Positions 26,576 to 54,655 of a stretch of 64,000 nt of DNA are shown here, in pieces. The notes below the pieces were generated by a model. That model was not told the origin of the DNA and did not search any database. It was given only the letters and a program-made list of their open reading frames with translations. This stretch comes from Acanthochromis polyacanthus (Eukaryota > Chordata > Actinopteri > Pomacentridae), in NCBI RefSeq assembly GCF_021347895.1, contig NC_067120.1:19701361-19765360 (forward strand). The letters are read 5' to 3'. How positions within the stretch are numbered: position 1 is the first letter of the stretch; each line of letters starts with the position of its first letter. Both the position numbers and the translations under genes were made by a program.

Positions 26576-26608
26576 TGTGTGGGTGTGTGTCTGTGTGTGT
26601 GTGTTTGT
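26576..26608. repeat. Imperfect (TG)n microsatellite
   Basis: A run of TG dinucleotides with a few interruptions lies within the probable cspg4 3' UTR. Confidence 0.9.
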
Positions 26609-26891
26609 GCAGGTGCCCGTCACTCTTTTGTTTTCTGCTTATTGAAGGCTGAGTTCATTACAGAGATTCATCACCACCTCCGCTCATTCTTTCATTATTT
26701 ATTGTTTCTGTCACTCCCCTTACATCAATTCATATTCAAGTTATGTCTATTTCTTCAGAGATGAAACTGTCGTCCGTAAACTGCTGGTGCCTTCAAAGTT
26801 AATAGTTATATGCAATGTTTAGTTTCTGGAACAAAAGAAATGTCATTTAAAGCTGCGGTATGTCTCTGAGCTTGTTCTCAGCACTAATTGA

Positions 26892-26897
26892 AATAAA
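26892..26897 (+). terminator. cspg4: Candidate polyadenylation signal for cspg4
   Basis: A canonical AATAAA is followed 20-40 nt later by a T/GT-rich stretch (TGTGTTCAGTAATTTGTGTC), the usual layout of a cleavage and polyadenylation site. It is the best-placed signal in the 2.4 kb after the stop codon. AATAAA at 25752 is an alternative proximal site. Confidence 0.45.
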
Positions 26898-26920
26898 ACA
26901 TTCATGCAACAAAACCTGTG

Positions 26921-29900
26921 TTCAGTAATTTGTGTCTGACTTCTGCTGAAATTAAACTCGTCAAGGCTGTGACCTACAGTTACCCAAAAGATCCTTCTTT
27001 CATATTTAGATACCTGTAATTTATTGCACTCTTGCCTCAAGTAAGGAAGTGTGGCAGATAGAACATTACTGCACCACTGGCCTCTCTTAACTGCCTCCTG
27101 CTGTAGTGGAAAGTGAAAAAATGTATACAAGTTAAGATATTACTAAAAAAAAAAAACATGTTCATTTCTGAATTGCTTAAAGTCTCCCAATTCCAGATCA
27201 AATGAACTTGTTTGTGTGCATGCTTGTTTGATGATTCATGATGAATGCTTTTATTTTGAAATTCACTTTAACTTTTGTTTTAAAGCGGATATTTAGAAAT
27301 CGTCTTAGCTCTAAAATTGTACCAAAAGTTATTCTTTTTGGCTTTAGAAGTTGCTCTTAATACAATTCAATTATTGCTAGTTTATTCTGGGAACAGTTTG
27401 TATATTCTCTCTGAAGTCTTGATGTATTTTATTTTGTTACTTTTTTAAAAGTATGTTGTGCTGAAATGTATATTATCCAAGTAGACTGGTGAAAAATATA
27501 ATGACCCTATTGCACATTAAACTGCTTGTTCCAATTTACCAGGGAATGGTATTAAAAACATAAACAGACAACATAAATATTACCATAAATGTGTTCCAAG
27601 AAGAATACATTTTCAATGCGGTAGCTATAATAATAATAATAAAAATAATAAGTCTTCTAAACTTTTTCTCTCTTTTCCAGGGCTGTTGTGAGTCTTTGTG
27701 ACCACCAGATGGTGTTAGGGTGCTAACAGTTCTTAAAGAAGCCACAACTGTTCCTGAGTTTGTCACATTTCAAGCTGCCTCTCCTTCCGTCATTCTTTCC
27801 AGTGAATGGCCTTTCCTTTCGGTGTTTCTCTCAGCTTATTGCATTTTGTCTGCTCTGTCTCCTCCTGGGTCACTGGCTTGCCATTGGTCCGCCTGCGCTC
27901 TGTTTTGAATGCTCGTCCTGCAGGTTTCATAAGCTGCTTGGCACAGCTGTTCCTCCACATGTGTCTCCTTAGGTCATAGTCTCTGAGCAGCGCTGTGTGC
28001 TGTGGATGACAAGACTGAAATGCATTTTGAAAGCAATACCACAAGCATACTGCATTTCAGTGTGTTCACCAAAACTTTTCCTGAACCTAAACAATGAAAT
28101 CTAATAAAAATGTGTCCAAACAGAAAATGAAACATTCCAAAAGAATGAAGAGGGATGTGAAATTCGGTTTCAGTGTCAGTCATAACAATGTTGATTATCT
28201 TGTTGTGCTCATTCAATTCAAGATGGAAATTTAAACTGAAACTAAAGGAGAACATTTCAGCAAATGAAAGGAACTTAAGTCTCCTACATAATTATACACC
28301 ACACACAGGGAATATAAGATCTCAGGAAATAAAGTCTAAATGCGATTTTTTTCATTTTGAATTGACCAAAATAAATAGTTCAAATTACTGACAAAAGTAA
28401 AAGTTTGGTCTGATGATCCAAACCCTGCAGAGACCCAGTGTGCGTGAATTAGAAGAGGATTTTCTTCTCCTAGTGCTCCATGGACACTTCAACACACCAC
28501 AGATGTGGTTGCAGATCAGACATGGATGTTTCTCTTTAACCACAGGATCCTTGATTCTTGCCTCAGATTCTTGATTCTATCGGAAATGTGTTTCTTCCTG
28601 CAGGATTCCTCCATTCTGTCTTGGCATGGTCAGAGAGAATGAGCCACTGATTGGTGAAAGTTATCCAGCATGAGTTTGGAACAAGCTGACTCCTCCTTTC
28701 CCCCAAAAGACCAACAGGAATGAAAACACACAAGGCAGGGAGGAGAAATCATTCTTGAGATACCATGAAAATAAGTGCTTGAACTCTTCAACTGTGAAAT
28801 TCAGGGACTAGAAAAAGTGTCAGCTTAGATTTTTGTCCTCTTTGCAGTTGTAACACACTTTGCTTTAAAAGCGTGCAGTTGAAGGTGCAGAATCAACAAG
28901 GTGTGCCAAAAAGAGAACAATATGGAGACAATCTAGGTTTTTATCAATCAGAATTGTCTGTTAAAACTCTCACCAGTCACACAAAAACCCTTCTAGATAG
29001 CCTAAGTTACTTGAAAACGAACGGTTCAAGCAACTACGTCAGTATTATTTTCATCCTATTCGAGTTTAAGGATATTAGCTTGCTCGTTAACCTTCAATAT
29101 GAGTCTGAGCTTGCTTGTGTTTACTTTGGCTGTAGCTCTTACAGACTGGCTCAGAGTCAGCTTCAGTCGAAGAGATATTCATGTTTGCTTTGGACTTTAC
29201 TTTGCTACATTATCTACAGACTCAATCAACCCTCAATATGCAGCAAGTGGCATGCAGCAGGACAAACCTCCAGAGCTGGATATGTTTCGGTGCGTGCTGC
29301 TCCCACCCTCCGCCGGCATCTCCCACTTCAGCGCAGAAAGTCACAACCTGAAAATAAAACCTCTCGGCATCACCGCCGTCAAATTTACAACTCTACTCAA
29401 GTCAACTTTGCTCGAATTGATGCGGTTTTCAGCAAGTTCCTGTTTGTTCTCATTTTGGTAACACAGTTGGTGTTAAGCTGCTCCGCTCCACTTCTCAGGG
29501 ATCTATTGTCAGTCAAACAGAGTGGGCGGTGCTGTGGTATTATTATTTGGATCTTCAGCCTGATGAGTTTACAATCAATCAAACCACTGCATGCCAGAAG
29601 ATTTTATTAGCGGGGAAAAAGTGGGACCAGCTGCAAATTTACATGCTTCAATGTCGCTCGGTTCATTATGAAGCACCAAGAAACCTCGAAAACCATTTAC
29701 TTATTGGTGCAAGGCCTTTCACTTGCTCCCTCAGAATGCAACCCTAACAGAATTACAAAAGGATGCACGCATTCATTGCATACCTGTAATACAACTGGAA
29801 GAAATTGAAATCTAAAAAGAAAGATCTGCTGTCATCTAGTTGTAATTATGAACAGATTTTTACTCTACATCCCTCTTGCAGTCAGAGATTGAATGCTAAT

Positions 29901-29978
29901 AAGTGAGAAGTGTCAAAAGCCTGCATGCAGCTATAAACTAAAACGCTCCAAGCCTAACTTATACATACTGATACCTCA
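26921..29978. other. Intergenic stretch with two weak coding candidates
   Basis: No confident gene is seen here. A minus-strand open exon candidate lies at 27790-28014 and is listed separately. Between 28873 and 29610 two + strand frames overlap. One is open for 245 codons but has no ATG near its 5' end. The other has an ATG at 29099 and runs 120 codons. Neither resembles a family I recognise. The 29250-29400 part is CpG-richer than its surroundings. Confidence 0.5.
27790..28014 (-). CDS. Candidate terminal exon, unrecognised protein
   Basis: On the minus strand an open frame ends at a stop at 27790-27792 and is preceded by possible acceptors: TGCATTTCAG (exon start 28014) and CATCCACAG (exon start 27999). 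It encodes about 70 residues that are unusually rich in charged residues, including HTALLRDYDLRRHMWRNSC, then AKQLMKPAGRAFKTERRR and KPVTQEETEQTKC. The basic, helix-like composition looks more like protein than like a chance frame, but I recognise no domain. No upstream exon was found on the minus strand nearby. It could equally be a chance frame or a pseudogene fragment. Confidence 0.25.
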   Translation of the reverse strand, partial: SCHPQHTALLRDYDLRRHMWRNSCAKQLMKPAGRAFKTERRRTNGKPVTQEETEQTKCNKLRETPKGKAIHWKE

Positions 29979-30422
29979 TGCATGCACAGGGGTGGACTGG
30001 GGCAAAAGATCAGCTCTGGCATTCTTGGCCCAGACCGGTCCACAACATTATCGGTTGACTGAATCAAGCACTAATTTTTGAATGACAAAAAACTGACAGA
30101 GAGGTCGGATTTTCAGAACAAAAATTCAAAAACATCCCTAGAGACCTATACAAACTTGTTGACAAGTTGGAATAAAAACAATTGCAATCCATTTAAGTCT
30201 TACCGTAAAATGACCAACTTTTTTTTTTAAAAATATAGCTGCAAAGTAAAAGTTTCACACTAAAGATGAATCACTAATGAACATTTAATGGCATTAACTC
30301 AATTATTATGAGGAAACAGATATCCATTTATAATATTTCTATCAAATACGCTTATGTCTGTAAAAATATACTGGACATCAATAAAAATGTCTGCATAATG
30401 AAATATATGAAGTCTATCTGCA

Positions 30423-30480
30423 ATTTTATATACATATATATATATATATATATACATATATATGTATATATATAAAATTT
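30423..30480. repeat. AT microsatellite with hairpin symmetry
   Basis: Alternating TA with a few CA/TG interruptions is framed by ATTTTATAT on the left and ATATAAAAT on the right, so the whole block can fold back on itself. It lies within the hAT-like element. Confidence 0.8.
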
Positions 30481-30840
30481 AGAAAATGTGACAACAAATA
30501 CTGTAATAAGCGTTAGCTAGCTGCTCCACAGGCTCTAAATATTCTTGTTCTCATCTCTGTCAAGCCCAAACAAAAAATGAATCCATATTCTGGCTACATT
30601 ACCAACAACAGCATCCATGGAGTGAAAGAAAGTTAGCCTACCTAGCGGAAGAGGTAATGAGGTCTGCTCTGGCACGGATTACTAACGTCACACATGTAGC
30701 TTTGAAAATAAATCTTCTACAAGACTCAGAGCGGTAGCTCCGTTTCAGTGTGAGCTCTAATGTTTCTCTATGTGACTGTGTCTGACTTACTCTAATAAAA
30801 TCCTCCAGTTCACTGCCAGCTGCAGCCACAGATATATATC

Positions 30841-30964
30841 TATCTACTGATTCATATCTATGGTTCTATCTACTGATTCATATCTACGGTCCTATCTACC
30901 GATTCATATCTATTGTCCTATCTACCGATTCATATCTATGGTCCTGACTACTGATTCATATCTG
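30841..30964. repeat. 26-bp minisatellite, 4.8 copies
   Basis: Tandem units of the form TATCTAC(T/C)GATTCATATCT followed by A(T/C)(G/T)GT(T/C)C start at 30841, 30867, 30893 and 30919. A partial fifth copy starts at 30945. Units differ by one to three bases. The array sits inside the hAT-like element. Confidence 0.92.
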
Positions 30965-31330
30965 TACTGACTAGTCCGGTCCGATGCAGTCTCGATGATG
31001 ACGTTTACTTCAGAACCAAATACGGACAGTTATACTGAGAAACGGCCACAGTCTTCTTACCGAAAGGTCCAAAGCAGCTCGTCTTCTCCTCTGGCATCAG
31101 GAAACGTCTTCAAAGCTTCTTCAAATCCAAACGAAATACAATCAAAAGATCAAACTAACGCCATTGATGCATTCAGGTGCAGTCGGACAACGAAGTTGCG
31201 TTCAGGAGCGTCAGAAATCGGAGTATCAGTAATGTAAATTTCCAACGAAAATTTTGAGGGGGCACACGGGGTGGCCAATCAGATCACGGGGGGGACCACT
31301 GCCCCCCCATGCCCCCACAGAAGATCTGCC

Positions 31331-31901
31331 TAGGCGTGAACTAACCGTGACGTCACCCGTTGGTCTCAACGCCGAGAAAATGAAGCCCGGATTTTGCTAC
31401 TTCCTGGTCGCCATTTTGGATTTTTTGGAGCCAGTGACGTAAAAAGCGTCATCAAACAGGCTGGACCGGAAAGTAACTCGGGGCAGGAACAGTCTATGGG
31501 CGGGCCAGACTGAGAGCTGAAGACTCTCTTATCCCGCCCGCATTTTACCGCAGAGGCTTCTGTTGCTGTCAGTCATTCCAGACAAGACTGTCTATCAAGT
31601 ATAGCCACGCCCCCTGGCTCCGCCAACTTTAACAATTTATTTAAAACTCAGTATTGATTTATTTTAAGATCGGCCACCTGATCTCTCATTTTGACCATGA
31701 AAACTAACGGGAAAAAAATCCTGAGCTGTAGAAAATCAGTCTATCAAATTTTATTTTTTTTGGTGATGAATTGGGGTCTATGGAGCAAAAGCTTTTTGGA
31801 GCCAACTCTAGCGGATGGCGTGATATTGCAAGTTTTTGACACTTCCGGGTGGGCTTCATTTTTGGAGCCAGATGCTACGTCCACTTTATATACAGTCTAT
31901 G
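31331..31901. mobile_element. Element nested in the hAT-like transposon
   Basis: An insertion is bounded by the direct repeat GATCTGCC (31323-31330 and 31902-31909). It ends TATATACAGTCTATG, a terminal sequence it shares with the element at 33906-34430. It contains GTGACGTCACCCGTTGG and GCCATTTTGGATTTTTTGGA. The left end lacks the matching inverted terminus, so it is probably 5'-truncated or rearranged. Removing it rejoins the host element smoothly (CAGAAGATCTGCC|ACTG). No protein-coding capacity is seen. Confidence 0.65.
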
Positions 31902-32537
31902 GATCTGCCACTGAATTGAACACTTTCACATTTTTTCGGGTCTTATATCTCTCCCCTTATATCCCTGCTGCTTAATACGAGAACTGAGCTGCAGGTTGTC
32001 CTGTCAGTATTTTGAATTGTGGTCTGAATGGTGTCAGGGTCGTTCTCAAACACATTTGTAGCTCAGTGGTCAGTCTGGTACGATATTTAGTTTGGATTAT
32101 ATTCATAGTTGAGAAAACTGCCTCATAACTGTATGTTTAGCCGAACATAATCAGCATGTGCAGGGCTACTTTCTTCTCAGTGTTGCGTTATTTGTCTTTC
32201 TATCTGCTCTGTCCTCTTGTCTGTCCTTTGCCTCTAAACTGTTTTCTGAAAGAGCTTGCTTAGCGGCTAAAATGCAGAGATTTCATTGGCTGAGTAGCGT
32301 CATGTGGGATGCCTGAATTTGTATGTAATCGGTCTGTGGGTTTCCTGAGCTGATAACAAACGACGTAAACACTGGAAAACCTGCGCCAGGATAATAGAAG
32401 CGACCCGTGAAATTTAAAATGTCATTACAATTTACTGATTACAGGTCCGGGGGAACCTGTTGACCAGCCCCACTAGACACCGGCCCACCAGGAGAGTGCC
32501 CAGTATGCCAGATGGCCAGTCCACCTCTGTGCATGCA

Positions 32538-33905
32538 CCATAAGTATCCTCTAACATTCATATTAAACACACCAACAGTGTTCATTCCCACACAGCTGTC
32601 AGAGCAGGTTGGAGGTGGGTCCCCGTGGCCATATGTTGGGGTCAGAGGAGCTGTGTAATGTGCTGGGCCGGGGCCAGAGCAAGAGTCAGGCCTGTTGTTG
32701 CAGTTTGTCCTGAGAAAAGAAAGGCCTTTCAGTCAGGAGGACACACACGGACAGCTGGAAGAGAGATAACGGATGGTGGTTTTGTCGCTGCCTGAACGGC
32801 TTGCTGCCTTCTGTACAGTGTGGGTGACAACAAAAGCAAAAAAACTGTTCATGATGCTAGTTGTTATATCAGTCGGGCCATTATGCAAATCCTTCTCTCT
32901 ATTTTAAGGTGCTCTGTTCAGCTGTGTGAAAGGATTACGGCAGGTGGACATTAGATAGCAGCAGATATTAGGCTGAGTATCACCATAGGGTCATTGTGTG
33001 ATTGTAAACAGGAAGCTCAAAGTCTGGCTCTCCATGAAGCTGTCATCTTGTTAGACCTTGTTGATTTTCTTCACAAAATGCAAGGATCAAGAATTTATCT
33101 ATAATTATTCTTGTGACTGACTAATCCTGATGAATACATAAGCCTGAATATTAGCATGACAGTGACTAAATGTCTTAACTTTCAGTCACCTAATTTTACG
33201 GCCTGTCATATCATCCAACTGTTCTTTCTGGGGAAATTTGGCTTTGCAAAGTATTAAATGACACAAAACGGAGTAAAAAAGAAAGAAGAGAGGCTGACAT
33301 AGCCTTATGACAAACCTAATGAGACCTCTAGACTGGCTGCATTGTGTTGTTCTGTGCTGTGACACCCTTGGTTACTGTAGTTTTCTATGCCTCCCCTTGT
33401 ACCATAACCGCTAAATTCCATTCACAGTGGGCTTCTTATACCATGCAATTAGATTTAACCCTTTACAGTAAAGGTCTCATAGAATCTCACCATCAGGGGA
33501 ACATATTTTGTTACTTTAGAGGCAGCTACTCAGAGGTGCAACAGATAATCTTCATATTTTCTTCAAAAGTTTTCTCGTAGGAAATATTTACATTGACTTA
33601 GTATCTCAGTTTCTTACAAAAACTGTTGTCTGTCTTGGGAAATAAGACTATTTGTGTCTTCGTTTGAAGTTGCACGAGAATCATCAGTGTCTTATATGCC
33701 AACCTGTGTCACCCAATGGAAACATCTGTCAAATTCATAGAATATCCAAAGCATCTAAACTGCATCAAAATATATTGACACTATATTCAAAGTTAAACAA
33801 AAAGTGATGTTCCTGTGATTCATTATACCAGAAAATAAAGAACGTGCCCCCTCCAGAGTCTGTATGTGAAAAAATAAGGTGTCTGTGTCCAGTAAACATG
33901 ATGCA
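32538..33905. other. Intergenic, nothing identified
   Basis: AT-rich sequence between two mobile elements. No coding region, RNA gene or distinct repeat is recognised in it. Confidence 0.6.
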
Positions 33906-34430
33906 ACCACAGACTGTATGGAAAATCCAGATCTGAAAAATAAACCAAAAGCGAAAGTGGCTTAAACCTGCATTCTTTCTAAAAACCACTAGGTGGCAAC
34001 TACTATGGTAACAAAAAGAAGTCCAACTGTACAGTAGACTGTCAGAAAATTACCCTACTTCAGCTGATTTATTACCTCAACGAATATTTTCCTAAAGAGT
34101 TTCTGGTCTCACTCAGGAGTCTCACATTTCCTTTAAGACAGCATAGTGCTCATTTGGTAAATTATGATCCCATTTGCAGTAAAATAGAAAATAAAGCAGG
34201 GTATACTTCAGGTTAGGGCTACCTTATGATTGACATGTCACTGCGGTATCTGCATGTGTAGCATCCACAAGTTCTCAATCTGATCCACCCGTCGCTCATC
34301 ACGTCTGGTTTTTAAAAAAAAACAAGATGGTGGCGACCAAATTCTAAACCCGAGGCTTCAAAATGGTGCTCCACAAACCAGCGGGTGATGTCACGGTGGC
34401 TGCATTTATCTTTTACATACAGTCTATGGT
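33906..34430. mobile_element. 525-bp MITE-like element with CAGTCTATGG termini
   Basis: The left end ACCACAGACTGTATG and right end CATACAGTCTATGGT are inverted repeats with one mismatch. TGCA flanks both sides (33902-33905 and 34431-34434). Internal segments such as CCACTAGGTGGCAACT, AACAAGATGGTGGCGACC and GGTGATGTCACGGTGGCT match a repeat type common in percomorph fishes. It shares its right end and the GTGAtGTCAC block with the nested element at 31331-31901. No transposase is encoded. Confidence 0.7.
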
Positions 34431-37425
34431 TGCAAAGATCCGTTCTAAATCAAAACTGCACCAGAGGAGCATACATCAGAGGGAGAATCAGCCACAGATG
34501 TTTGTGCATCTCTAATCCGACGTCTTGACATATGTGGCAGGGGCTGAAGTTGTGCTTTCCAGCTTCATAGCATAACATAGTCTGCTGATAGCTGTAGCAA
34601 CCATCGAACTAAAATTTTATCACATATACGTTGATGTTGATTTTTTTTTTAAGTACAAGTAATTTTATTTAGACATCTGTAAGCAGCTTGAATTGGGCAA
34701 AATCTGTATAATTTATTGACAATCCATAAAAGCTGACATGTGGAAGAGATGCACGTATGTTCCCGACCATTAAATTACATCTAAAGTTAAAGTAGCTATA
34801 AAGAGTATTATTAGTGCCAATGGCATCAATGGCCTGTATTTGGAAGATTGTATGTTGTTCTTAGTGGTGACAGATAACTATACAGCCTCCATCTCTGAAG
34901 TTCCCTTCCGCGATATGTATTATATTAGTGTCTTAAGTGTCTTTTCCCATCTGCAATTTCCAAAAATCATTTCTTTTTCACTGCTTTCATTAGTTTTGTT
35001 TCAGGCAGCAAAAAGGCCTCCAAAAGTCCTCTGTATGCTGCTCAGCAACAAACAGCAGACAGACAAAGCTTGTGACTACTGTAGCTGGGGAATAGCAGTG
35101 AAGCATTTAGCAGCTGAGGAGTCACATATTTCCCTCAGGAGTTGGTCGAGAACAAAGAACAGTGCCTAAAAGAGGTGGATGTTAAACTTAGCGCTCAAAG
35201 ACGATTCCAAATGAATGTTAATGTAGCTTTGCGTAAGCTGAATGTGTTTATAGAATGGGCAACTTTCTGCTAATAAATTTGCAACATGAACCTACAAGTC
35301 ATTAACATGTCAGCTGTGTTTGTTTCCACTGGACCCAAGTACCAAATACGTTGTTATTGCAGGTTTAAGTCAAATATGCCCAAAGGTTAGCACCACCTCT
35401 CCTGCTAGTCACACAAATGGAAAAATGAAATTGACGAGTTGTGACTTTATGGGGGTTATGTGCTGGAACTTTTTGTTGTGTAGGTGCAGTGTTATTCGCA
35501 GTCAACTCCTGCCAGTGTTGCTATGGTCCTTCACTGTACAAGAAAACACAAACACAGCCACAAATGTTGCAGTTTCCCTGGTTTTCTCCACGAAAGAAAG
35601 TTTGCTTGCTGGAGTTTCTTGCCCAGAGTATTATGTTAGCAGCATAGTTCCAAGATAATTATTTAACTTGGTGAGTACAATGCTATTATTACTGATAAGA
35701 ACAACAAACTAAACCACAAAAATAGTAGGTACAGGAATTTCCAAACTGTTGGACATCAAGGTATTAATCACTGTAACTCAAGTAAGATGCTGCACAGTGG
35801 CAGCTGATTTTCCAGCGTTAAAATTAATTAACATCCCACCATCCATCCTTCAGCTCACCAGAGGCCCCCACTATCAGAACGCTTCCCCTGGGGGCTGCCT
35901 AGACGCCAGCTTGCCTCTCAAATCATTGCAAGGCTTTGGTTTGTGGCCTGACCAGAAGAGCAGATGATTCCTCGGAGCCAGCACCGAGGAAGACTTTCAC
36001 CCTGCCCTCCTCTGTGAGAAATGCACTGTGGTCAACCTGCTTTGTTACTCCCACTGGCTGGAACACTATTGTCATGGAAATCTCTGTTTTGTTTAGTGCG
36101 TGTGAGACTGTGTGCATGCGTCTGTAATACCCTGCAGTGGGGTGGGACAGACTACAGAGAGCCAAGAACAACAGAGCGCTGGTCTAACGTTGCCTCCCAC
36201 CCTCCTTTCATCCCTCCCCTCGCAGCACCTCATCTTCCTCCCCTCCCTCACCACCCACCCTCCATCGTCGTCCATCGTAATGCTCTCAAGAAATCACGAA
36301 GGGAGCTCACGAGTCTGGACTGGGCAGGAAATCAGCAGGGTGGACCCCCGTCACCCTGTCCCCGGAGGCTGAAAGGGAAGTCAGGCCCTCAGATTTGGGT
36401 TGCGTCGTCGCTCTGTCCAGCTGACGGGGTGGAGCTCTCCCTCCAGGGTTTATTGTGTCACTACATGCAGCATGGAAACAAACTGCATCAGTTTAAATGC
36501 TCACATGCATGAAAAATACAAAACAGGTTTTGGTTTCTTTGCCTCACCGGAGAAAATAAAATTATTCCACACAGTGATGATGTTCTACAAGTTGGCAGGC
36601 ACTTGTTTGTACTATTTGCCAAACTTTTCAGTCCATGTTATTTTTCAAAGATGGGTTTGTGATTTAGGGGAAAAGCTGCGCGAGTTTGTTCTGTTGATTT
36701 TGGAAAATTAAGGTACCAAAGTGTAACCCGACCAGAGGAAGTGTGGCTCTGAGGTGGGCCTGAAGGTGTATGAGCAAAGTGAGGCAGTGGTCAGATGGAG
36801 ACGGGCTGGAGTTCGGCACGCACAGAGACATGGTATGTGAGACCCGACTGGGAAGTTATTTTAAGGGTGAGCCCTTCTGGAAATTCACTCAGCGCTGTCT
36901 GCCTGTACTGCTTTTCATCACGGCTGTTGCTCTACTGGCCACCACGTAACATCGAGAGCCTTACAGTGGGCAGAAAACAGTGTTACTTAATCAAATTTTA
37001 CAGCACTTAAGCAGTGTGGATGACATATCAGTTTACCAAATATTGGTGTCTTCAAGTTCAGAGAAAATGGTAGAATTTAATGAAAGCACTCAATTAGCTG
37101 TCAGTTGTGCAGCAGAGGTTGTGGATTAAATATGTATTTTTGTATTAGTGTTATATAATATACCTTGTTTTGTCTGTCTCTCAGTTGTTGGGTGGAACCT
37201 TTGCTGGGGGACCCCTGTACCCCTACATACACGTTTAACAGGCCACAGCATCCTATAAATGACTTTTTCCTCCTGTACTCCTCGTTTTGTTCTGTGTTCT
37301 GAGAGAGAGGTAAGCCAGATTGTGGAGTTGTGGTTTGTGTGTTTTAATGTCAGTAATTCCACTTATGAATTCACTTTCCGATTCTGATATGTGCATTGTT
37401 TGATTTCTGTCGGAGGCCAAGTTTG
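34431..37425. other. Intergenic, with a GC- and pyrimidine-rich patch at 35880-36470
   Basis: No gene is recognised. The patch at 35880-36470 stands out as GC-rich with a long C/T-rich run (36190-36270). An ATG-initiated frame of 163 codons (36021-36512) crosses it and gives a proline/histidine-rich peptide without homology I can name. It could be a conserved regulatory block or a composition artefact. Confidence 0.45.
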
Positions 37426-39595
37426 GGTAGCACTTTATAATAACTATACACTATTAAGCATTAGTTAAGCATTGGTTCAGCATAATTTCAGCATTAGTTA
37501 ATCCTTAAATCCTCATGAACTCATCATGAATTCACCATTAGTAATGCATTACAAAGCATTAGTAAAGACAGTTTTAAATGTTCAACCAACACATTATTAA
37601 GCATTAGTTAAACATTAGTAAAGTGCTTAATTCATCGTTAACTCATCATTTGTAACTAATTAGTTATACGTGCATAATTAATCATGAATTCATGATCTGT
37701 ATGACATTTATTATGCATTACTAAGCACTTAATAAATCCGGTTAAAAATGTTTTGTTGCTCATTGATAATCTCAGATGTTAATACTTTATAAAGGGTTAG
37801 CAACTGTGTTAGTATATGATTTACAAACATGTATTCATCCTCAATGAATAACTTATTAATGCGGTTACTACTCATTAGTTAAGTATATTCCGTGAGCCCA
37901 TCTAAAGTGAGGACTATCTATGCTTTATAAAGCATTTATAAAGGACACAGAAGCAAAGATATACAAAGTGTCAGTTTTATTGGTCCCAAACAACACAAGC
38001 TCTTTTAAATACACACTTTAAACACATACAATCTATAAAATTTCAAGTAAACTTGACAAACATCTTCAAATAACAGTCTGTGATCGTATAAAATAGAAAA
38101 ATAAAATACAAGCTCTTTTAAATACACACTTTGCAATCCTTAACATTTCAAGTAAACTGGTGAACTATCTCTTCAGGGCACACACACACCAGAGGTAAGT
38201 GGCTGCCTGATTCTGGGATTCCGCCAGTGCATTTCAATGGTGTGCCCTTGAAGTGCACAAAGTGCTTTACAGTAAAACAAATATACCGTTTTCAAATATT
38301 GCAAGATAACACTAGATAATTTCTGCAACCTGTTTGCCTCTACGATCAGCTGCCATCTCCCCAGCGTGATATGGCTCTCTCTCCGACTTCCGCATTTCAG
38401 AAAAATTAAAAAAACCCCGCGCGGTCTCGCTCTCCAGAACCGCGGAGGAGGCTGGGACTTGTAGGACTCTGGGACTCTGGGATTTTGGAGCATGCGCACT
38501 AGCATTTTTGACGGTAAGAGCATGCGCAGTAGCGTCCTACACATCCCAGAGTCCTACAAGTCCCAGCCTCCTCCGCGGTTCTGGAGAGCGAGACCGCGCG
38601 TTTTTTTTAAAATTTTTCTGAAATGCGGAAGTCGGAGAGAGAGCCATATCACGCTGGGGAGATGGCAGCTGATCGTAGAGGCAAACAGGTTGCAGAAATT
38701 ATCTAGTGTTATCTTGCAATATTTGAAAACGGTATATTTGTTTTACTGTAAAGCACTTTGTGCACTTCAAGGGCACACCATTGAAATGCACTGGCGGAAT
38801 CCCAGAATCAGGCAGCCACTTACCTCTGGTGTGTGTGTGCCCTGAAGAGATAGTTCACCAGTTTACTTGAAATGTTAAGGATTGCAAAGTGTGTATTTAA
38901 AAGAGCTTGTATTTTATTTTTCTATTTTATACGATCACAGACTGTTGTTATTTGAAGATGTTTGTCAAGTTTACTTGAAATTTTATAGATTGTATGTGTT
39001 TAAAGTGTGTATTTAAAAGAGCTTGTGTTGTTTGGGACCAATAAAACTGACACTTTGTATATCTTTGCTTCTGTGTCCTTTATAAATGCTTTATAAAGCA
39101 TAGATAGTCCTCACTTTAGATGGGCTCACGGAATATACTTAACTAATGAGTAGTAACCGCATTAATAAGTTATTCATTGAGTATGAATACATGTTTGTAA
39201 ATCATATACTAACACAGTTGCTAACCCTTTATAAAGTATTAACATCTGAGATTATCAATGAGCAACAAAACATTTTTAACCGGATTTATTAAGTGCTTAG
39301 TAATGCATAATAAATGTCATACAGATCATGAATTCATGATTAATTATGCACGTATAACTAATTAGTTACAAATGATGAGTTAACGATGAATTAAGCACTT
39401 TACTAATGTTTAACTAATGCTTAATAATGTGTTGGTTGAACATTTAAAACTGTCTTTACTAATGCTTTGTAATGCATTACTAATGGTGAATTCATGATGA
39501 GTTCATGAGGATTTAAGGATTAACTAATGCTTAAATTATGCTGAACCAATGCTTAACTAATGCTTAATAGTGTATAGTTATTATAAAGTGCTACC
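37426..39595. mobile_element. 2.17-kb foldback element: near-perfect palindrome
   Basis: Left arm (37426-38474) and right arm (38544-39595) are reverse complements over about 1,050 bp and are roughly 99% identical by eye. Differences include single substitutions near 37488 and 37848, a 3-bp indel near 38070 and changes in an A-run near 38405. A 69-bp spacer (38475-38543) contains two direct copies of GAGCATGCGCA. Termini are GGTAGCACTTTATAATAAC and its complement. The outer 350 bp of each arm carry many GCATTAGTTAA-type subrepeats. The sequence ACAAGCTCTTTTAAATACAC occurs twice per arm. The flanks CAAGTTTG and AAAGTTGG agree at 6 of 8 positions and may be an old target duplication. No transposase is encoded. 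Confidence 0.9.
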
Positions 39596-40556
39596 AAAGT
39601 TGGTAAGACGGACAATTTTGTGCAGGGTTTTTTTGTCTACTGTAAAGGTATGTGTTCCGTCTTCGTCCTCGGTTTACGACATCCTCAACCTACAGCATTT
39701 TGTCAAGTAGGAACTCGTTATGTTGAACTAGTTAACGAGTGGAGCGGACGAATACGTCGGCACTATAAGAAGGCTTTCTTTACATTTTCCGATTGTACGC
39801 CACCTTGGATTGTGTTACATTTGCTAACTTTTTGCCCTTCATTATGGCTCCCATTCGCAAGTCAGACTGTTCTGATGGCAGAAGAAAAGGAAAGTCATCT
39901 TCACGGGTAATACATGTATAGTTCGCTCATTGGTTTTTCTGTTTCAAAATAAAATTTTTAAAAAACGATAAACCACCTTGTTTTTTTGTTTTTCAGTTTT
40001 TAAAACCTAAATGTAGAAATGTATTATTTAATTAATGGAAAAACCACAATGTTGGATTTTTACCGCCCGGCAAACATCGTTGTCCGGAAGGTATTGTTTT
40101 GAGCTGCATGGTCTTGGTTGGTTGCTTGCTTGCTTGCTTGTTTGTCTGTAACAATTTGGTTTCCGTGCGATAACTCGATAAAATATTGATGTAGCCTCAC
40201 CATATTTGGTACACAGGTGTACCATAATAAGACACAGGTCAAGTTCGCATTTGGTGACCTTGGCCTCATTTTCAAGGTCACCGGAAGTCGCTGAGGAAGA
40301 ACAGTTATGAGCTGGTGTTGATCGTGAACACATCTAGAATGGCTGTAATTCAGCACTTTTCCAATTTCATTCTCTTTGAGAGTGATAAAACCCACGCAGA
40401 AATCATGGAGCTCCACATTGCTCTATATTATATTATATTATAGAGTCTATAGCTAATGAGTGTCAGGAGGGTTCCGCATGGAGAACAATTTAAGAAGACG
40501 CAGTCATATGTCCCTGCTGATTTGGAGAGAGCTGTAATTTGCTCTGTTAACCACAT
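39596..40556. other. Unassigned stretch with a receptor-half-site repeat and a mini-exon candidate
   Basis: No gene is established. A possible first exon (ATG at 39844, 21 codons MAPIRKSDCSDGRRKGKSSS plus R, then CGG|GTAATA) lies downstream of a TATAAG at 39760. A 40150-40290 segment has the look of a dispersed repeat rich in AGGTCA/TGACCT half-sites. A (GCTT)n run lies near 40121. Confidence 0.4.
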
Positions 40557-41118
40557 TGTTAGGGTGCGGGGTTTGTAAACCCAAAAGCAGGTACTCAGAG
40601 GCAGGCAGATACTTAAACACAGATTTTAATAAACAAAACTAAGGCACACCAAAACCCCATGCAGGGGGTAGTCTAAACACAACTAAAGCAGGGCTCCAAA
40701 CTAAACATGAGCAATGAACAGAAACAGGTCACGACAAGGGCCAGAACTAAACGCGAACGGAATTACTCACAACTAAAAGTCCAGGGACCGCGAGCCGAGG
40801 CGAGGACAGAGGGAAAGTTCTGGGGTCAGAGCAGGCGGCTGCCTGAACGAAGCGGGGACAGAGTTCCGGATCTGGGCCGGGCAGGACAGAGCAGACTGGG
40901 AAATCCAGAGTGGTCGGGGGGGAGACCGGAGCAGAGTGGCTGGTGGAGCGTCAGCAATAGCCGAGACAGAGGCAGAAGCAACCGTGACAGAGGGAACCCA
41001 GACAATGGCCTAGCACTGAGTGGTGGGGAGAGCCAGGTCTTAAGCGGTGCTGATTGCCAATCAGCCGGAGCTGTCGGCTGGCCAGGAGCGCAGCACAGAG
41101 AAGGGAGGGACCATGACA
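40557..41118 (-). mobile_element. Solo LTR, minus orientation, 562 bp
   Basis: On the + strand the block runs TGTTAGGGTGCGGGG ... GGACCATGACA. Read on the minus strand it is therefore TGTCATGG ... CCCTAACA, the TG...CA form of an LTR. Flanking CACAT (40552-40556) and CACGT (41119-41123) match at four of five positions, fitting a 5-bp target duplication. An ATTAAA poly(A)-like signal lies near the 3' part on the minus strand. There is no adjacent primer-binding site or gag-pol, so it is a solo LTR. The long + strand open frame across it is not a gene. Confidence 0.72.
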
Positions 41119-42658
41119 CACGTTATTTTCAGTGTCATACTTTATTAACTGTAGAATGTTATATTTTACTTCTGTGTGTTTGACAGTCAGGTCCGACATG
41201 CGGACGAAAGTTTATGACGGGATACTGGTCATCTATTTATGCCGCTGTTCCAGTTTAACAGGTGATAGTTTCCGTCGCCAAATGTTTCATCTGCAGATTC
41301 GTCACGATCAGACCTGGATTTACGTGAAATTAAGATACCAGATAAAGAAGACGGTTTCACTCTGTTCCGTTTATATTCCATATTAAACAGTGGACGATAT
41401 AGTTTGTCGGTGAACTTTATTCAACATTGCGCATAGGCAAACATATGCTACGGCAGTAACCTTTGACCTGGCCAGTGTCACACTCTGATCGGTTCACCGA
41501 GGAACATATGTTATAAACATTCCCCTTGACACAAACACCTCGCCGAAAAACGTCGGCATCACTACTTAATAAAGTCTTTATCCATGTAAATATCACCTAC
41601 AGACAGTAAAAAGAAATGTGCTGGTTGAATCAAAAATACGTATCTTTATGAACGGTGAGAGGACACGATGGAATGCAGAAATAAAATTAGAGACCACAGT
41701 CTGACTCGTATCACCGCTTCATGCACATAGGTCTTTGTCATTCTGCCAGGTGTTTAACATCTGGTGATTGTTTAGGAAACATGCCCAGGTTAACTGGAGA
41801 TAGTCACAACTTAGGCTGCCTGGTTAATAACGAGTCAGAAAACTAATTATTGTCTCACCAAGAAAACCCACAACATAGAAGCATGTCCACCGCTGCGTTA
41901 GTCTGAGTTCAGTGGAACAGATCCAGAGCAGAACTTCAGGTTAAACTTGGGTTTGTTCTCAGAAACACTCAGAGCCTCAGCAGCAGAACATCGGAACAAC
42001 ACGCAGCTGAACATCAGCTGGATCTGATCAAATACATCTGAACAACAGGCAGCAGAACATCAGCTGGATCTGTTAAAATACACCAGAACAAACTGAGACC
42101 ACATTATCAAAACTAGTCACTCAGAAAACAGTAACACGTTCAGTCCTCCCTCCTAACCATCATTTTGTTCACACTGAGATAATGATTTCTCAGTGTGATG
42201 CGTCTACTCCCTCTAAATAAGACAAACGTGTTTTCAGAATACGTGGTGCAGAGTTAGGGACAGAGAAGTGAAGTCAAGTCGCCACGAGTTCTGACTTCGA
42301 TTTCCAGTTCAGCCAGGAGCTTCCAAATGGAAAAATGCTCTTTTTAGTCGTTTAAACCGTAAAATTGATTAAAACGCAGCGTTTTTTTTAATTCTCTATT
42401 TTTTGTTTTTCAAATTTAATTTTTAAAGTAAAAAAACAAAAAACACAAAAAGATGATTTGTTTTTTCTAGTTTTATTTTGAAACGGAAAAAGGAATGGGA
42501 AAACCATACACGGATTATGGGTACTTTCTTCACTGCAACGTAGAAGCCGCAGCTATCCAATCGTGAGTAGTAGCAAACTTGACTTCATTACTGTGGCTCT
42601 TGATACACATTGCAGAGTGAAAACTGCAAAAACAACACAATAAAACAAAATAAATGCA
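41119..42658. other. Intergenic, short tandem duplication only
   Basis: No coding region is recognised. A two-copy 46-bp tandem repeat lies at 41995-42086. AT-rich homopolymer-like sequence occupies 42380-42450. Confidence 0.55.
41995..42086. repeat. 46-bp tandem duplication
   Basis: Two adjacent units start AACAACA(C/G)GCAGC(T/A)G and share AACATCAGCTGGATCTG. They differ at about seven positions. Confidence 0.85.
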
Positions 42659-42947
42659 TGTTGGGACAACCCTCCACCAGGACACCAGGTGTGCCTGTTC
42701 TAGTCGTCACCTGATTGAGCCACACCCACGATCTAGTGGCTCAGCTGCACTTAATCTCTCCCATTTCTATTCAAGCTCGCTCTCTGACAAGAGCTGCTGC
42801 CGTGTGGAGCTCCAGCAGCATGATTCTGGGTTTTGTTTGGGTCTTTAATGCTCATTTGGTTGTTTTGCGTGGCAATAAACCGTTTTCAGTAACCACACCA
42901 TCGTTGTCTCCTGGTTTAGTTGCAGCTTTTGGAACCAAGTTGTAACA
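42659..42947 (+). mobile_element. Probable solo LTR, 289 bp
   Basis: The block starts TGTTGGGACAACC and ends AAGTTGTAACA (TG...CA). It is flanked by ATGCA (42654-42658) and ATGTA (42948-42952), four of five bases matching. An AATAAA lies near 42874 in the 3' part, as expected in an LTR. There is no internal retroelement sequence next to it. The boundaries rest on the short terminal and flank matches. Confidence 0.5.
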
Positions 42948-42952
42948 ATGTA

Positions 42953-43468
42953 AATAAATCCTTCTTACTTAACCAGTAAGTCCAAAAAATTAAGTTAATT
43001 ACTTACAACGTTGCCTCTGAGGCATTTACAAAGAAGAGCCTTGCATCCGGAAAAGCATGTACGTGTGTAAAGCTAAACATCAAAATAGCGTACAGGAAGT
43101 GACAACTGTCAACAGACAACTTCAAAATAAAGGCCTTTTAAAAAATAAAAGTACATTAATAATTGTGCCTTGAGGACAACACACTATGGAGGTGAAATTA
43201 GATTGAATAAAATGCTCAGAACAGGGCAAAACACTGATGAACATCAGCATTATTAGATCAAGTTGTAAAAACAGTGCAACATATTCTTTTATCTTCTTGT
43301 AAAATGACTCATATATGCATGAAAGTCATTGGTATTCATGACTTCCATGAAGAACTGATCAATATCATGATGCACGTAACGGCTTTGCTTACCTTTTCTC
43401 CAGAGTTCCGACTTATGGCAAAAATCAGTTTACATCAGTCTGTAGAGAAGCCACTGGTTACACAAATA
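42953..43468. other. Intergenic, nothing identified
   Basis: AT-rich sequence between two mobile elements. No coding or structural feature is recognised. Confidence 0.6.
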
Positions 43469-43476
43469 CATGCCAC

Positions 43477-44073
43477 CAGTGTTGCCAACTTAGCAACTTT
43501 TTCGCGAAATCTAGTGACTTTCCAAAGCGTCCTAGCGACTTTTTTTGTCAAAAGCGACTAGCAACAAATCTAGCGACTTTTTTGCCGTTTTGGAGACTCT
43601 GATAGGAAAACTCGGATCATTCTGCAGTTACTGTTTTCAACGAGCAGCAGGTGCTGCTGTGAGCTCCTCCCCGTCCCAAAGCATAGGCTGTCAGTCCAGT
43701 AACCCCACAGCAGTCCCAGTGTCTGATTAGAGGACACATCACTCCGTGGCCAGACGGCAGGTGAATCACGCATGCGCAAAGTCACTACAGATCTCATCCA
43801 GACTTACAGAGCGGGATATAAATGAAAATGTTTCTTCACTGTCATACTAAAATAAACCACAGTATTTAGCCTCTAGAACAAAAACATATTTTGGGTGTTT
43901 TGTACTCACTTTTTGGTCTCTTCCACAACGTTATTCCTCTCTCCTACAACGTTGATTACAATTACACGCAAACTGGTAAATATGCAAATTAGGCAATGAC
44001 GTCATTTAGCGACTTCTAGCGACTTTTAGGCCAGCCAATAGCTACTTTCCTTACTGAGGAGTTGGCAACACTG
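43477..44073. mobile_element. hAT-type MITE, 597 bp
   Basis: Ends are CAGTGTTGCCAAC and GTTGGCAACACTG, a perfect 13-bp inverted repeat. They are flanked by perfect 8-bp duplications CATGCCAC (43469-43476 and 44074-44081). The subterminal regions carry multiple copies of TAGCGACTTTT on both sides, a likely transposase-binding pattern. No transposase is encoded, so it is a non-autonomous hAT element. Confidence 0.93.
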
Positions 44074-44081
44074 CATGCCAC

Positions 44082-44714
44082 AGTTATTCAAGCAGAGCAC
44101 TACACAGCCTGTGGGAACAGCTGTAGACTGTCTCCCAGTGGCTCCAGTGGAGCTTTGTCATGTCTGAGGAAACTACTCAAGTGACCACTCTGATCATTTT
44201 GGCATGACCTTGGAGTCAGTTTGAATAAACTTTTAAAAAGACAGTGTTCTCTGTTACTTAGAAAGTCCCCAACATTTGCAAGTCACTTAAAAGTGTTACT
44301 GTGTTAGCAAACAGTTGTCCATTTGCACATCCAGGAGATTCATTTTTCTGGACAGTGAGCTAATGCAAATCCATAATATACTCCCTAGCTTTGTTTTGGT
44401 CTCCACCAACTCTTTTGTAAATATTCCGGCTGCTAAATGCTGAACTGCAGTTACCAGCCGCTTGTTTAGTCTGTCTGCATTTTTAGTTTTGGGCAGGTTG
44501 TACAAAGTGATTTTATCAGCGCTTTTTTGATCAATACAGCTGCCAGCTGTTGCTGGAAACTATTTTCACAGTGAAATTACAAGCGATATAACCAAAACAT
44601 CCAGGTGAAATATGTTTTTTTTAAAAGAGGTTCTTACTGCAGCTTTAGACAACAATTAAAATGCAAAATATAACAAAATATATTGGAACTTTGTTAACCA
44701 CATATTTCGTCTGT

Positions 44715-45489: not shown

Positions 45490-46310
45490 CAAAGATATGA
45501 AGACTTTCATCGAAGTCCTGCAGAGAAAAGATTGTGATCAATTCTGGCAAAAGGACAAGCCAAGATCCCCAACTGTTCTATAATAAATCCTTCTACTGTG
45601 AGGAAAGTGATCAACAATTGGTGTATATTTCAGGAGACAGCCCTTTTGTTTAGTTCTAGCCACCTAGCAAATTTAGCTCAAGAGCAGACTGCTTGATGTG
45701 AAGTTTCCCAAAACATCCAATTTCAACACAGCATCTGAAGTAACTCTGAAACTGTTGTTCTCTAATTCATGTATGTACAATCAGATAGAGATTGCACAAA
45801 GTTGACCTGCATGGGAGCCCTGCCATAAAAAAGTCTTGGCTGTCCAAAAAGAACAATAAGAACTACAACGGTTTGCCAGCGAATGTACCGTGATCAGGAG
45901 AAGAACCTCATACCCACTGAAAAGCCTGGTTGTGGAAATGTTGTCGTTTGGGGTTGCTTTGCTGCCTGGGCAACTTGCAGCCATTGACCTGACTTTGTCG
46001 AACCAGAATTGAACCGTTCAAGAGGACTGCGATTCCAAGTATGCTAGTAAGTTTACCAAGGAAAGATTCAAAAAGAAGAAGTGGATGGTTATGGAATTAC
46101 CACAATTCCCAGATTTAAATCCAACCAAAATGTTGTGAGGGGATTTCAAAGGATATTACATGCAAGAAAATCCCCAAACACCTGGAAACTGAAGGAATAT
46201 TGCCTTGAGAATGGTCAAAAATTTAGACGAGTGGACAATTATGCAATATGTCCAGAAGAAGTAAGACCTACCAGTTTCTGATGCCAAGGGTGAAGTTACT
46301 TACTGACATG
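45490..46310 (+). mobile_element. Degenerate Tc1-like transposase relic
   Basis: Fragments of a Tc1-family transposase appear in order but in different frames. Around 45795 there is LHKVDLHGSPAIKKSWLSKK, the region just before the catalytic core. Around 45927 there is GNVVVWGCFAAW, matching the [13 protein letters not shown] motif. Around 46092 there is LPQFPDLNPTKML, matching SPDLNPIE with the glutamate region degraded. Frameshifts and stops separate the pieces, and no intact terminal repeats were found. The boundaries are approximate. It is clearly a different and much older lineage than the intact Tc1 copy at 53-54.7 kb. Confidence 0.72.
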
Positions 46311-48115
46311 AGAATATCACATCTGTTGATATGTTTGTTGAGTACATGATTGAAAAAGCTAATTCACCAAGTACAGAAGCTTTGCCTGTTGTTTCAAAGA
46401 GGATCAAATGTTTGCTTGTGCAAATGTGTCCAAAAGACCACAACCATTTCCAAAAGACTGTCCTTATGTTCTCAGAGCACTGTGTATTTACCTTATGGTG
46501 GTGACTATAAACCAGCCATCCTCATTTCTAGCATGACGTCACCTTGTTTTGCAGCTTTGCATCTCCCAAGGAAACAGTGTGTCCTTTTCATGAGAATGAA
46601 CTGTATATTAACACTTCCCCTAAAGCTCTCTTGACATGACAAACACCAGGAATGTGACTTGTTTACAAAGTGGGTGGATGTTTTCATTGCTAGTGTGGCA
46701 GATTCACTGGGATCTGTCTAATTGCTGGCAACATCTGTTCACAGTTTAGTCTCCAACCATCCAGGAATGCTCGCGACCACAGTCAGACGAGGGAGTGTGG
46801 GGAAGAGAAAAAAAAGCATGAGCTGCAGACTGAAGGGGAAACATTTTGGCAATCCTCCATCGCCAAACAATCAGGGCAGGACGTTTTTTTCTTATCTTTT
46901 TCCCTTCGCTCTGTGTTTAAGCTCTGACATTTGCACAGGGCGTTTTGTGAGATAACATCGTCAGTCAGTACGCTCGGACGTCGTATGTCACATTCTTTTG
47001 TGGGCATAGTTTGATAATGCTATCTGGGACTCGCATTTCCCCACTTAAAATCTCACCTTTGATGTGCCAGTTTATTCAACTCTGTCCATTTGTTTGAACT
47101 GATAAAGCTGTATTACACTATAGGGCTGTGAATTTCTTGTTTTTAGTTTTTCCAACAAACTTGATGTCTGTGTGTTAATTCCATCTGGTGATGAAAAAAC
47201 GGAAATATTTCACACTTCCATTATTATTGAACTGTTAGCTCTCAGATGCTAACGATCAGAGCTTTGCATTATTCTTTTTATTATTTATAATAATGAAAAT
47301 AAGAAAAACATCTCATGCAATGTTCATTCCAAAATCTTTCTTCTTATTCACTTTTTTTTGTTGTTCTCAGATTTTATGCGATTTGTTTTGACTGTGAGTG
47401 GATTCCAGAATTTCATTCCAACATCAGATATCCATCATATGAAAGCAGAGACACATTTTTACCAAAACAGCGTGGGCAATGGCAATAATGTCTGGAAACA
47501 TTAGGCAATACGTACTGTACATCAGGGAGCAGTGAATCACTATGCATGGATGTCTGTGTTTTTGGAATAAAACCTTTTAGTCATGCTTGGGTGTTTAATT
47601 TCTACAGTTTGATGTTAGTTTTTCAGTGTTGACGTTCGCTCTGTCCATTTCACGGACAGATTATACAGTCCCACGGGAGACGGGAGGAAGGGACAGTTCA
47701 CTGTGAGGCAGCCTGGACAAACTGTGTGTATGGATGGCTGACACTGTCATAATTATCATTCCAGTGTCGGTTTAATAGGACAACCACACATCTCCCCTTA
47801 TCTAGTCTTCTTGAATTGAAAGCGATGGTAAGAATTTTTGTCCGCCTGCGCAACCAAAACACTTCTGCAGGCGTTCATTGATCATTATGACTGACCTGCC
47901 TTTTTTTGGGTCAGTTGCTTAATGTTTTTGATTTCACAACTCATTTTTTGGCCTGAATATCACAGCACAAAACCAAACATTCTTCCCACTTATAGCACTT
48001 CAAGTTGCAGCACACAGTGTTCTAATCAAATCCTCTAATGCACACCCTTCCAGTTGTAATCTGTCAGTTTTATTTGCTGATTAGTTTGCACTGAGGTTTT
48101 ATCTTTCTGATGCAG
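46311..48115. other. Intergenic, nothing identified
   Basis: No gene, RNA or mobile element is recognised. The first few hundred bases may be the tail of the Tc1 relic. Confidence 0.5.
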
Positions 48116-48278
48116 TTTGGCCACTGGTACCCCTAAATACGGAGACAAGTCTAATGTTCCTCCTATGAAAACTCCGAATATCTGCTGTGATATCTGCCAT
48201 GTCCGATTTAACTCAGATGTCAGAAGTCAGAGCTTCAAATGGCATCACACTCGAGTTGAGCTTGTTCCAGCACAACAG
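48116..48278 (+). pseudogene. ZNF385-like zinc-finger exon, degraded
   Basis: A 163-nt segment has an acceptor (TTTCTGATGCAG) and a donor (CAACAG|GTCAGA) and is open throughout. Its peptide includes CCDICHVRFNSDV, which closely follows the first half of the matrin/U1-type zinc fingers of the ZNF385 family (CNICQxRFNSD pattern). After that the family expects a His-Tyr-Lys-Gly block and a second His five residues later. Here it reads RSQSFKWHHTRVE, so the first zinc-binding His is missing and the spacing is altered. I infer an orphaned or decaying exon. No neighbouring exon of the same gene was confirmed. The similarity is by eye, from memory of the family pattern. Confidence 0.4.
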
Positions 48279-48975
48279 GTCAGAAAACCTTTGTTTTAAC
48301 ACTAGCCGTTATTAGCTATGTTAAGCTGTACCAGTTGATACCAGTATATTATGGGGCCATCAGACACAACACAGCATGTGCTGCACTAGGTGTTGGGGGG
48401 GACTTGACAGCATGAAAAAGGCAGTTTTCAAAACTATGAGCGGGAATGCGTCAGTGACATATTCTGCATGAAAACTATACATCTTTATAAAATTACCTTA
48501 ATTATATAACTAAGTCTGTAAAGCAATAGGGGGAGCATAACAAAAATAAACCGTGTTTACACATATTGCCTATCTATAACAAGCTGCCGAACTGTTCAAA
48601 GACACCTAAAAGGTCAACTTGGATGGTCCAAGATACAGCAGTGCTTTCCTCCAGACATCCTGTCACAAATGCCATCTCAGGCCATAATTGAAAGAATTTT
48701 GATGCACACTGTTGATCTGTTTTGCCACTGGAAATATGGGGTTTCTAACTGTGAACTCGTAATTTCAGCTTCCTACCATAAAGTGTATTCCACAGTTACC
48801 ACAGCCGCACCTGCCAGCACACAAGACTCTTGTTCCCCTTAAGGAGTCATTTGAGAGCATGTACTTGCCTGCAAACACCAGTTCTCTGCCACCTTGTCCA
48901 CTGTACCAAAACAGACATAGCCTTCCATCTTCTGTTCTCCAACATGTTATTGAATTAACTTGCATCCACTGGTTT
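48279..48975. other. Unassigned stretch
   Basis: No confident feature is seen. A + strand frame from about 48768 is open up to the SINE after a possible acceptor (AATTTCAG) and encodes a proline-rich peptide with no recognised domain. It is too short to separate from chance. Confidence 0.4.
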
Positions 48976-49713
48976 TGGGGGGCTGCACAGTGATGTGGTA
49001 GTTAGCACTTTCACCTTGTAGCTAGAAGATCCCGGTTTGCGTCCCAGCCTTCCTGGGGTCTTTCTGCATGGAGTTTGTATGTTCTCCCTGCACATGCATG
49101 GATTTTCTCCAGTTACTCCAGCTTCCTCCCACAGTCCACAAACATACTCAGGCTAATTTTTAATTCTAAATTGTAAGGCTGGCAGTTGCCAGCTCTGGCT
49201 AGCACCCTCTCTCTCTTCCTCCTTCCCCTGTCCTCCTTTTCAGGTTCCTCTATGAAGTAATTGCAGCAGCAGGTGTTCTGCATCATAATCATCAGCCGGT
49301 TCAGTAGCAGGTGGAGCGCGGCCAATCAAGCCTCACTTCCTCTGCAATATAACCAGACGCCACTTTGGATATTTTGCCTACAGTCGCTTTAGTTCTTAGC
49401 TGTTCTCGCCTAGGTGTTACCCTCCATGAGTCAGTTTTAGTATTATTTATCATTATTTAATCTTTAGTCCTCCTAGCCACTAGTTGTAGTCAAGTTCACA
49501 GTTCTAGTTTTGCCGAGTGTTTCCGGTTGTAGTTTTCTGGCTTGATTTGTAGTTCTGTATATAATTTCCTGTAATTAAACTTGCATTGTGCCTGTCTGCT
49601 CATTTCCTGCACTTGAGCTCCCTTTGCAAATCGTAACATAAATTGTCCACAGTTGTGAGTGTGATTGTTTGTCTCTATGTGTAGCCCTGTGACAGACTGT
49701 TGACCTGTTTCGG
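48976..49713 (+). mobile_element. tRNA-headed SINE-like repeat, split by an LTR
   Basis: The head (GTGGTAGTTAGCACTTTCACC followed by CCCGGTTTGCGTCCCAGCC) carries A-box-like and B-box-like pol III promoter elements. It is followed by the body GCATGGAGTTTGTATGTTCTC and TTCCTCCCACAGTCCACAAAC typical of a very common fish repeat. The body is interrupted after TTCTAAAT (49171) and resumes at 49639 with TAAATTGTCCACAGTTGTGAG. Removing the insertion and one TAAAT restores the expected TCTAAATTGTCC. Confidence 0.85.
49172..49638 (+). mobile_element. Solo LTR inserted in the SINE, 467 bp
   Basis: It starts TGTAAGGCTGGCAG and ends CAAATCGTAACA (TG...CA). It is bounded by perfect 5-bp duplications TAAAT (49167-49171 and 49639-49643). 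It contains a TATA-like AATATAACC near 49348 and an AATTAAA poly(A)-like signal near 49573. Because it splits a recognisable repeat, its borders are well defined on both sides. No internal retroelement sequence remains. Confidence 0.85.
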
Positions 49714-52944: not shown

Positions 52945-53020
52945 ACACCCATCCATTATTTACACATCCCTTTATCTTCTATTGGGCTGTTGGGGGCCGG
53001 AGCATATCTCAGTTGACTTA

Positions 53021-54655
<1,635 letters not shown>

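Follow-up and report, generated by a model that had tools for sequence, protein, structure and literature searches.

A near-perfect 2.2-kb palindrome in Acanthochromis polyacanthus, probably a non-autonomous foldback DNA transposon

Overview

The window analysed here, i.e., the whole stretch of 64,000 nucleotides, contains a near-perfect 2.2-kb palindrome that is confirmed as a real structure and that is probably a copy of a non-autonomous foldback (long-TIR) class II DNA transposon, moved in trans by a transposase encoded elsewhere. This identity is preferred because the element has sharp, GG-ended termini, arms that make up almost its whole length, internal repeats, a short spacer and no Pfam domain in the frames scanned; a CpG-rich core completes the list of what was observed. 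The general properties of the foldback class are found in it, namely long, near-identical inverted repeats that constitute most of the element around a short middle domain, and further repeats inside these TIRs (an 11-bp array and segments of 28 and 37 bp). An earlier note on this DNA had already proposed a foldback element moved in trans, and this continues to be the best reading of the anatomy, with a terminal array far beyond chance. The element is of a known kind and its family is probably new, in the sense that the open-licence papers searched yielded no name; the family may well be already named in Repbase or Dfam. The coordinates of its features are collected in Table 1.

Table 1. Features of the palindrome and its immediate flanks (window coordinates).
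Feature	Position	Strand	Remarks
Left flank octamer CAAGTTTG	37418..37425	.	possible TSD copy (6 of 8)
Left arm	37426..38474	+	
Left terminus GGTAGCACTTTATAATAAC	37426..37444	+	
11-bp-periodic subterminal array, left arm, unit TTAAGCATTAG	37446..37640	+	tandem repeat call at 37454-37501
CpG-rich promoter-like core	38350..38649	.	21 CpG, GC 0.53
ETS-like GCGGAAGT in core	38386 (-), 38625 (+)		one per arm
SBS-like (ZNF143) sites in core	38452 (-), 38553 (+)		two mismatches each
Spacer, 69 bp	38475..38543	.	two 16-bp direct repeats holding GCATGCGC (NRF1-like)
Right arm	38544..39595	-	inverted copy of left arm
ATG in strong context, 14 codons and stop, outward	38662..38706	+	putative coding role
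Outward AATAAA	39040..39045	+	mirror TTTATT at 37976
11-bp-periodic subterminal array, right arm	39520..39567	-	tandem repeat call
Right terminus	39577..39595	-	
Right flank octamer AAAGTTGG	39596..39603	.	possible TSD copy

Architecture of the palindrome

When both arms are aligned, 1042 of the 1052 columns (99.0%) are identical, which agrees with the earlier description of the arms and of the spacer between them. The ten differing columns comprise two isolated substitutions (37489/39532 and 37839/39182), a 3-bp indel (38071 / 38947-38949) and five substitutions clustered at 38408-38417, near an A/C tract by the core. A repeat finder reports the arms as two blocks, 653 and 406 nt long, the inner pair of which is separated by 69 nt. 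Chance symmetry as the origin of the palindrome is ruled out by the length and the identity of the arms. Furthermore, the central 321 bases, considered as single-stranded DNA, fold 31 SD below their shuffles, none of which (0/100) was as stable. Within the spacer, the two direct copies described previously are present, and their extent has been amended to 16 bp, GAGCATGCGCA(C/G)TAGC, at 38488-38503 and 38518-38533.

The same terminus is found at both ends of the palindrome, and these are its only two exact copies in the window. An isolated match to 16 of its 19 positions, at 63593-63611, is the only further one in the window with up to three mismatches, and the sequence surrounding it bears no further similarity above chance to the element. 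No second copy of the element was found within the 64-kb window. As for the suggestion that the inverted symmetry might simply run outward past the termini, it is weak: the first outer base differs, the next two agree and the symmetry breaks down after that. The first 1 kb of each flank shares just two short matches with the other, of 14 and 18 bp (E 0.43).

Subterminal array and putative mobilization

The dense subterminal subrepeats noticed previously are real and far above chance. Within the outermost 475 bp of the left arm, the heptamer CATTAGT is found seven times and never in reverse, whereas 2000 dinucleotide shuffles average 0.15 occurrences and never exceed 2. In the left array, the five best self-match lags (of lags 5-59) are 11, 22, 33, 44 and 55, and the self-match at lag 11 reaches 0.52. 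For up to 2000 segments of 195 bp taken at random from elsewhere in the window, this value averages 0.27 and does not exceed 0.39. The array is a tandem one that has decayed, its period is close to one turn of the helix, and the other arm carries its mirror image. Each arm also contains the 28- and 37-bp segments mentioned above, repeated 105-116 bp apart.

By analogy with Galileo, whose THAP domain is described as having several sites in tandem repeats inside the long TIRs (PMC3688188), the 11-bp array may be bound by a transposase. In the mechanism that we propose, a transposase encoded elsewhere would bind these phased sites in each arm and pair the two GG-ended termini, and the element would be moved by cut and paste. 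The arms would have been extended inward until nearly the whole element became TIR. Gene conversion or template switching in the course of gap repair is the most likely route, and this growth would have mirrored a CpG-rich, promoter-like internal segment.

Coding capacity and RNA families

No Pfam domain was matched in the three forward frames of either arm. A 126-aa open frame common to both arms was considered as possible coding capacity and discarded, given that it has no Pfam match and that none of the 4 candidates in a protein search with its right-arm copy qualified as a hit (E up to 0.1). Neither is the element identified as a structured RNA, there being no Rfam match in the window at gathering score. 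At relaxed thresholds seven matches appear, all of them below the gathering scores of their families; three have small E-values (4e-12 to 5e-9), and five of the seven span the centre of the palindrome, as any hairpin would.

The CpG-rich mirrored core

The most interesting addition to the earlier reading, which had missed it, is the CpG-rich, promoter-like core. Its 21 CpG are reached by none of the 213 non-overlapping 300-bp bins of the window, on a grid that is not aligned with the core, and two 150-bp bins of the core have CpG observed/expected ratios of 0.85 and 1.17, vs 0.39 for the window. The ratio alone cannot single out the core, because high values are likewise seen in certain AT-rich bins that contain few CpG (37600, 39250), as well as in the right flank. 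The latter (39550-39999), with ratios of 0.93, 1.25 and 0.96 vs the same 0.39, may be a young insertion or else a second promoter.

The sites in the core were labelled after the NRF1, ETS and ZNF143/SBS consensus motifs. Besides the two GCATGCGC NRF1-like sites of the spacer there is one elsewhere in the window (43770), and the full 12-bp NRF1 consensus is matched only with two mismatches. An exact ETS-like GCGGAAGT is present in each arm and is absent from the rest of the window, where its variant CCGGAAGT is found twice. The ZNF143/SBS-like site in each arm has two mismatches, and there is one other comparable site at 46099.

Outward of the core, the right arm has on its outward strand a single ATG in RNNATGG context, at 38662, and this ATG is mirrored in the left arm on the minus strand, at the end of the ORF 38312-38536. 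An AATAAA lies 378 bp outward of it, but chance alone should give roughly one such motif on each arm strand, and a second one is located at 39309; the one at 39040 is a possible polyadenylation signal. From this arrangement we infer that the core may have promoter activity and that, together with the ATG, it may be a promoter/first-exon piece of an ancestral transposase gene or of a captured host gene, now present in both arms. A near-consensus splice donor, GAGGTAAGT, is also found in each arm (38192-38200, plus strand; 38818-38826, minus strand); it points inward, opposite to the orientation of the promoter-like core.

Could the palindrome then be a transposon that carries a self-mirrored transcription unit? 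The core would fire outward both ways, and the two resulting RNAs, near-identical and non-complementary, would end at the mirrored polyA signals. This is highly improbable. If it were true, transcription from inside the element would avoid double-stranded RNA, read-through from a host promoter would give a kilobase hairpin, inviting silencing, and the element would be a selfish one whose symmetry separates its own from foreign transcription.

Flanks, target site duplication and age

The two flanking octamers, CAAGTTTG and AAAGTTGG, agree at six of eight positions, exactly as stated previously. Such a match is reached by 0.7% of 20000 random position pairs, and by 1.8% when other TSD lengths are allowed, so that once these are allowed it is not beyond chance. 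With the ends at their nominal positions, 8 bp alone among the lengths from 2 to 11 reaches a 75% match (2/9 and 1/10 positions agree at the next two lengths), and the lengths 2-7 and 9-11 were accordingly rejected. Shifted ends permit an exact 5-bp AAGTT or an 8/10 match (CCAAGTTTGG / CCAAAGTTGG), which were set aside because an exact 5-mer is obtained for 3.1% of random pairs when each side may be shifted by up to 2.

The earlier note had regarded the copy as probably recent, and this is not supported. Gene conversion can preserve the identity of the arms, and imperfect flanks are ill-suited to a young insertion that makes a TSD: at an insertion age set by the arm difference, the probability of at least two mismatches in an 8-bp TSD would be about 1e-4 to 2e-3. 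The combination of near-identical arms and imperfect flanks thus implies either that there is no TSD or that the insertion is older and its arms were homogenised later, and arms kept alike by gene conversion would carry no age information.

Alternative origins

A one-off inverted duplication of local or ectopic sequence, by template switch in replication or repair and with no transposing unit, would be in keeping with the imperfect TSD and with the absence of a second copy from the window. Nonetheless, it is unlikely, since both sides of the mirrored unit terminate at the same base and the array adjoins those ends, as in transposons; a template switch would not put the array at both outer ends, and the flanks share only the two short matches. 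The poor TSD would also be accounted for by a head-to-head joining of two element copies or halves, through ectopic recombination between two insertion sites, in which case the palindrome could mark a rearrangement breakpoint, and Galileo copies are described as having made inversions by ectopic recombination (PMC4168063). This origin is very unlikely, however, when confronted with a spacer at the exact centre and with near-identity along the whole arm, which two independent copies would need to have had.

A hairpin read in the assembly would yield a near-perfect palindrome as well, although the worry is weakened by the sharp, transposon-like termini at which the symmetry stops, by flanks that are unrelated on both sides and by the ten differing columns between the arms, the 3-bp indel included, making such an artefact extremely improbable. 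A foldback DNA transposon accommodates the anatomy best, and it is in this sense that the element is compared with known systems in what follows.

Relationship to known elements

Which superfamily would provide the transposase? The GG at the element's end (37426-37427) corresponds to the GG termini described for Merlin, and the 8-bp frame of the flanks might fit the Merlin TSD of 8 or 9 bp (PMC8101967); the flanks agree at 6/8 and 2/9 positions at these lengths. In contrast, the Merlin TIRs reported there measure 24-462 bp, vs about 1,050 bp here (PMC8101967), the TSD here is imperfect, and the arm frames scanned showed no transposase, which in Merlin would be of the IS1595-type DDE kind. Merlin is a weak lead. 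A Mutator-like fit, judged by the TSD length of about 8-10 bp applied to Tetris (PMC4079207), might be seen in the 8-bp frame only (6/8, 2/9 and 1/10), a weak signature. The P superfamily was discarded: the element ends in GGTAG, which corresponds neither to the terminal motif YARNG (PMC2820524) nor to Pdre2-like ends, and no THAP domain or remnant was matched by Pfam in the three forward frames per arm, although a non-autonomous copy need not retain one.

Regarding foldback elements proper, Galileo, a foldback-like member of the P superfamily from Drosophila, is described as having many copies that consist of TIRs and a spacing region, with long TIRs that are 99.9% identical in one copy and contain tandem repeats in one copy, and with internal sequence recruited into the TIRs (PMC4168063). 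The element resembles it in the make-up of TIRs and spacer, in the near-identity of the long TIRs and in the repeats within them. On the other hand, Galileo TSDs are of 7-8 bp with the consensus GTATTAC (PMC4168063), its transposase is of the P superfamily and its host a fly, while the ends of the element misfit the P terminal motif and no sequence relation is shown. Tetris, a foldback element of Drosophila virilis, has TIRs with internal repeats and a noncoding middle domain, its autonomous partner being given as not found in PMC4079207; the element shares with it both the internal repeats and a middle domain without coding capacity. It differs in that Tetris has TIR-220 tandem repeats, vs the 11-bp array here, and TSDs of 8-10 bp (PMC4079207), again with no sequence relation shown.

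Among the matches listed from the open-licence literature there is no fish foldback element of comparable kind, and searching it for the termini and their variants as text turned up no paper. The ends of the element may resemble those of the Angel MITE. Angel, from zebrafish, is comparable as a MITE of fish, with single strands that are reported to self-pair in vitro (PMC12628747). Pdre2 from zebrafish and the non-autonomous Izanagi from medaka are fish P elements with 8-bp TSDs, and hence comparable as teleost class II elements with TSDs of that length; they differ in their TIRs of 13 and 27 bp, respectively, with other sequences (CATACCTGTCAAC; CAATGAGTTATATC...) (PMC10983969, PMC2820524), and in the THAP domain, not matched in the arm frames scanned here.

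The terminus pattern was also searched in viral and prokaryotic contigs, with 5 loci in the former and 35 in genome contigs of the latter, where about 30 are expected by chance (an estimate for 257 billion bases). Compared with all 40 loci, the element gave short matches only among the matches listed, the best of which has an E-value of 0.002 (L028). Another locus, L030, in a contig labelled bacterial, has a 33-bp match at the terminus and was rejected, by eye, for lacking the subterminal array. Three internal patterns of the element gave no viral contigs each. The terminus-pattern hits in these contigs look like chance.

Genomic surroundings

About 12.9 kb to the left of the element ends a plus-strand ORF (22620-24521) with Cadherin_3 domains in Pfam, cspg4-like, which matches fish proteins, some of which (Tetraodon, 76%; Bagarius, 57%) bear the name chondroitin sulfate proteoglycan 4, and which therefore points to a teleost as the host. 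The closest matches listed reach 86%, in a comparison that lists 78 proteins and that scored only the 7994 candidates sharing most words. At E 0.01, Pfam gave no match in the six frames of 39601-44702 and 54701-64000, in two of the six frames of 24601-37426, or in one frame each of 46001-49000 and 48900-51899.

Other repeats are present in the window. At 53019-54657 there is a Tc1/mariner element with 215-bp inverted repeats (98% complementary) and an uninterrupted transposase frame (53300-54436, plus strand) with Sleeping Beauty-type HTH and DDE_3 domains; it looks young and is possibly intact. Two inverted copies about 8 kb apart (48980-49115 and 57135-57271), some 80% alike, look like a dispersed repeat. 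Just outside the palindrome, a 57-bp inverted pair (39908-39964 and 42461-42517; 77%), 2.5 kb apart, possibly represents the ends of another decayed element. A 46-bp unit is repeated 2.3 times in tandem at 41988-42091, a further copy, 67% alike, lies at 43218, and the frames around the tandem repeat gave no Pfam domain.

Significance

In spite of its striking structure, the element is most likely an ordinary kind of mobile element, and if it turns out to be just another fish foldback family, it would be a routine addition to repeat libraries. Foldback-like elements can nevertheless promote inversions, as described for Galileo (PMC4168063), and can seed hairpin RNAs. A kilobase-sized, near-perfect palindrome surviving in a vertebrate genome offers a handle on the persistence of such structures and, if active, the mirrored promoter-like core would test whether palindromic architecture alters the silencing of an element.
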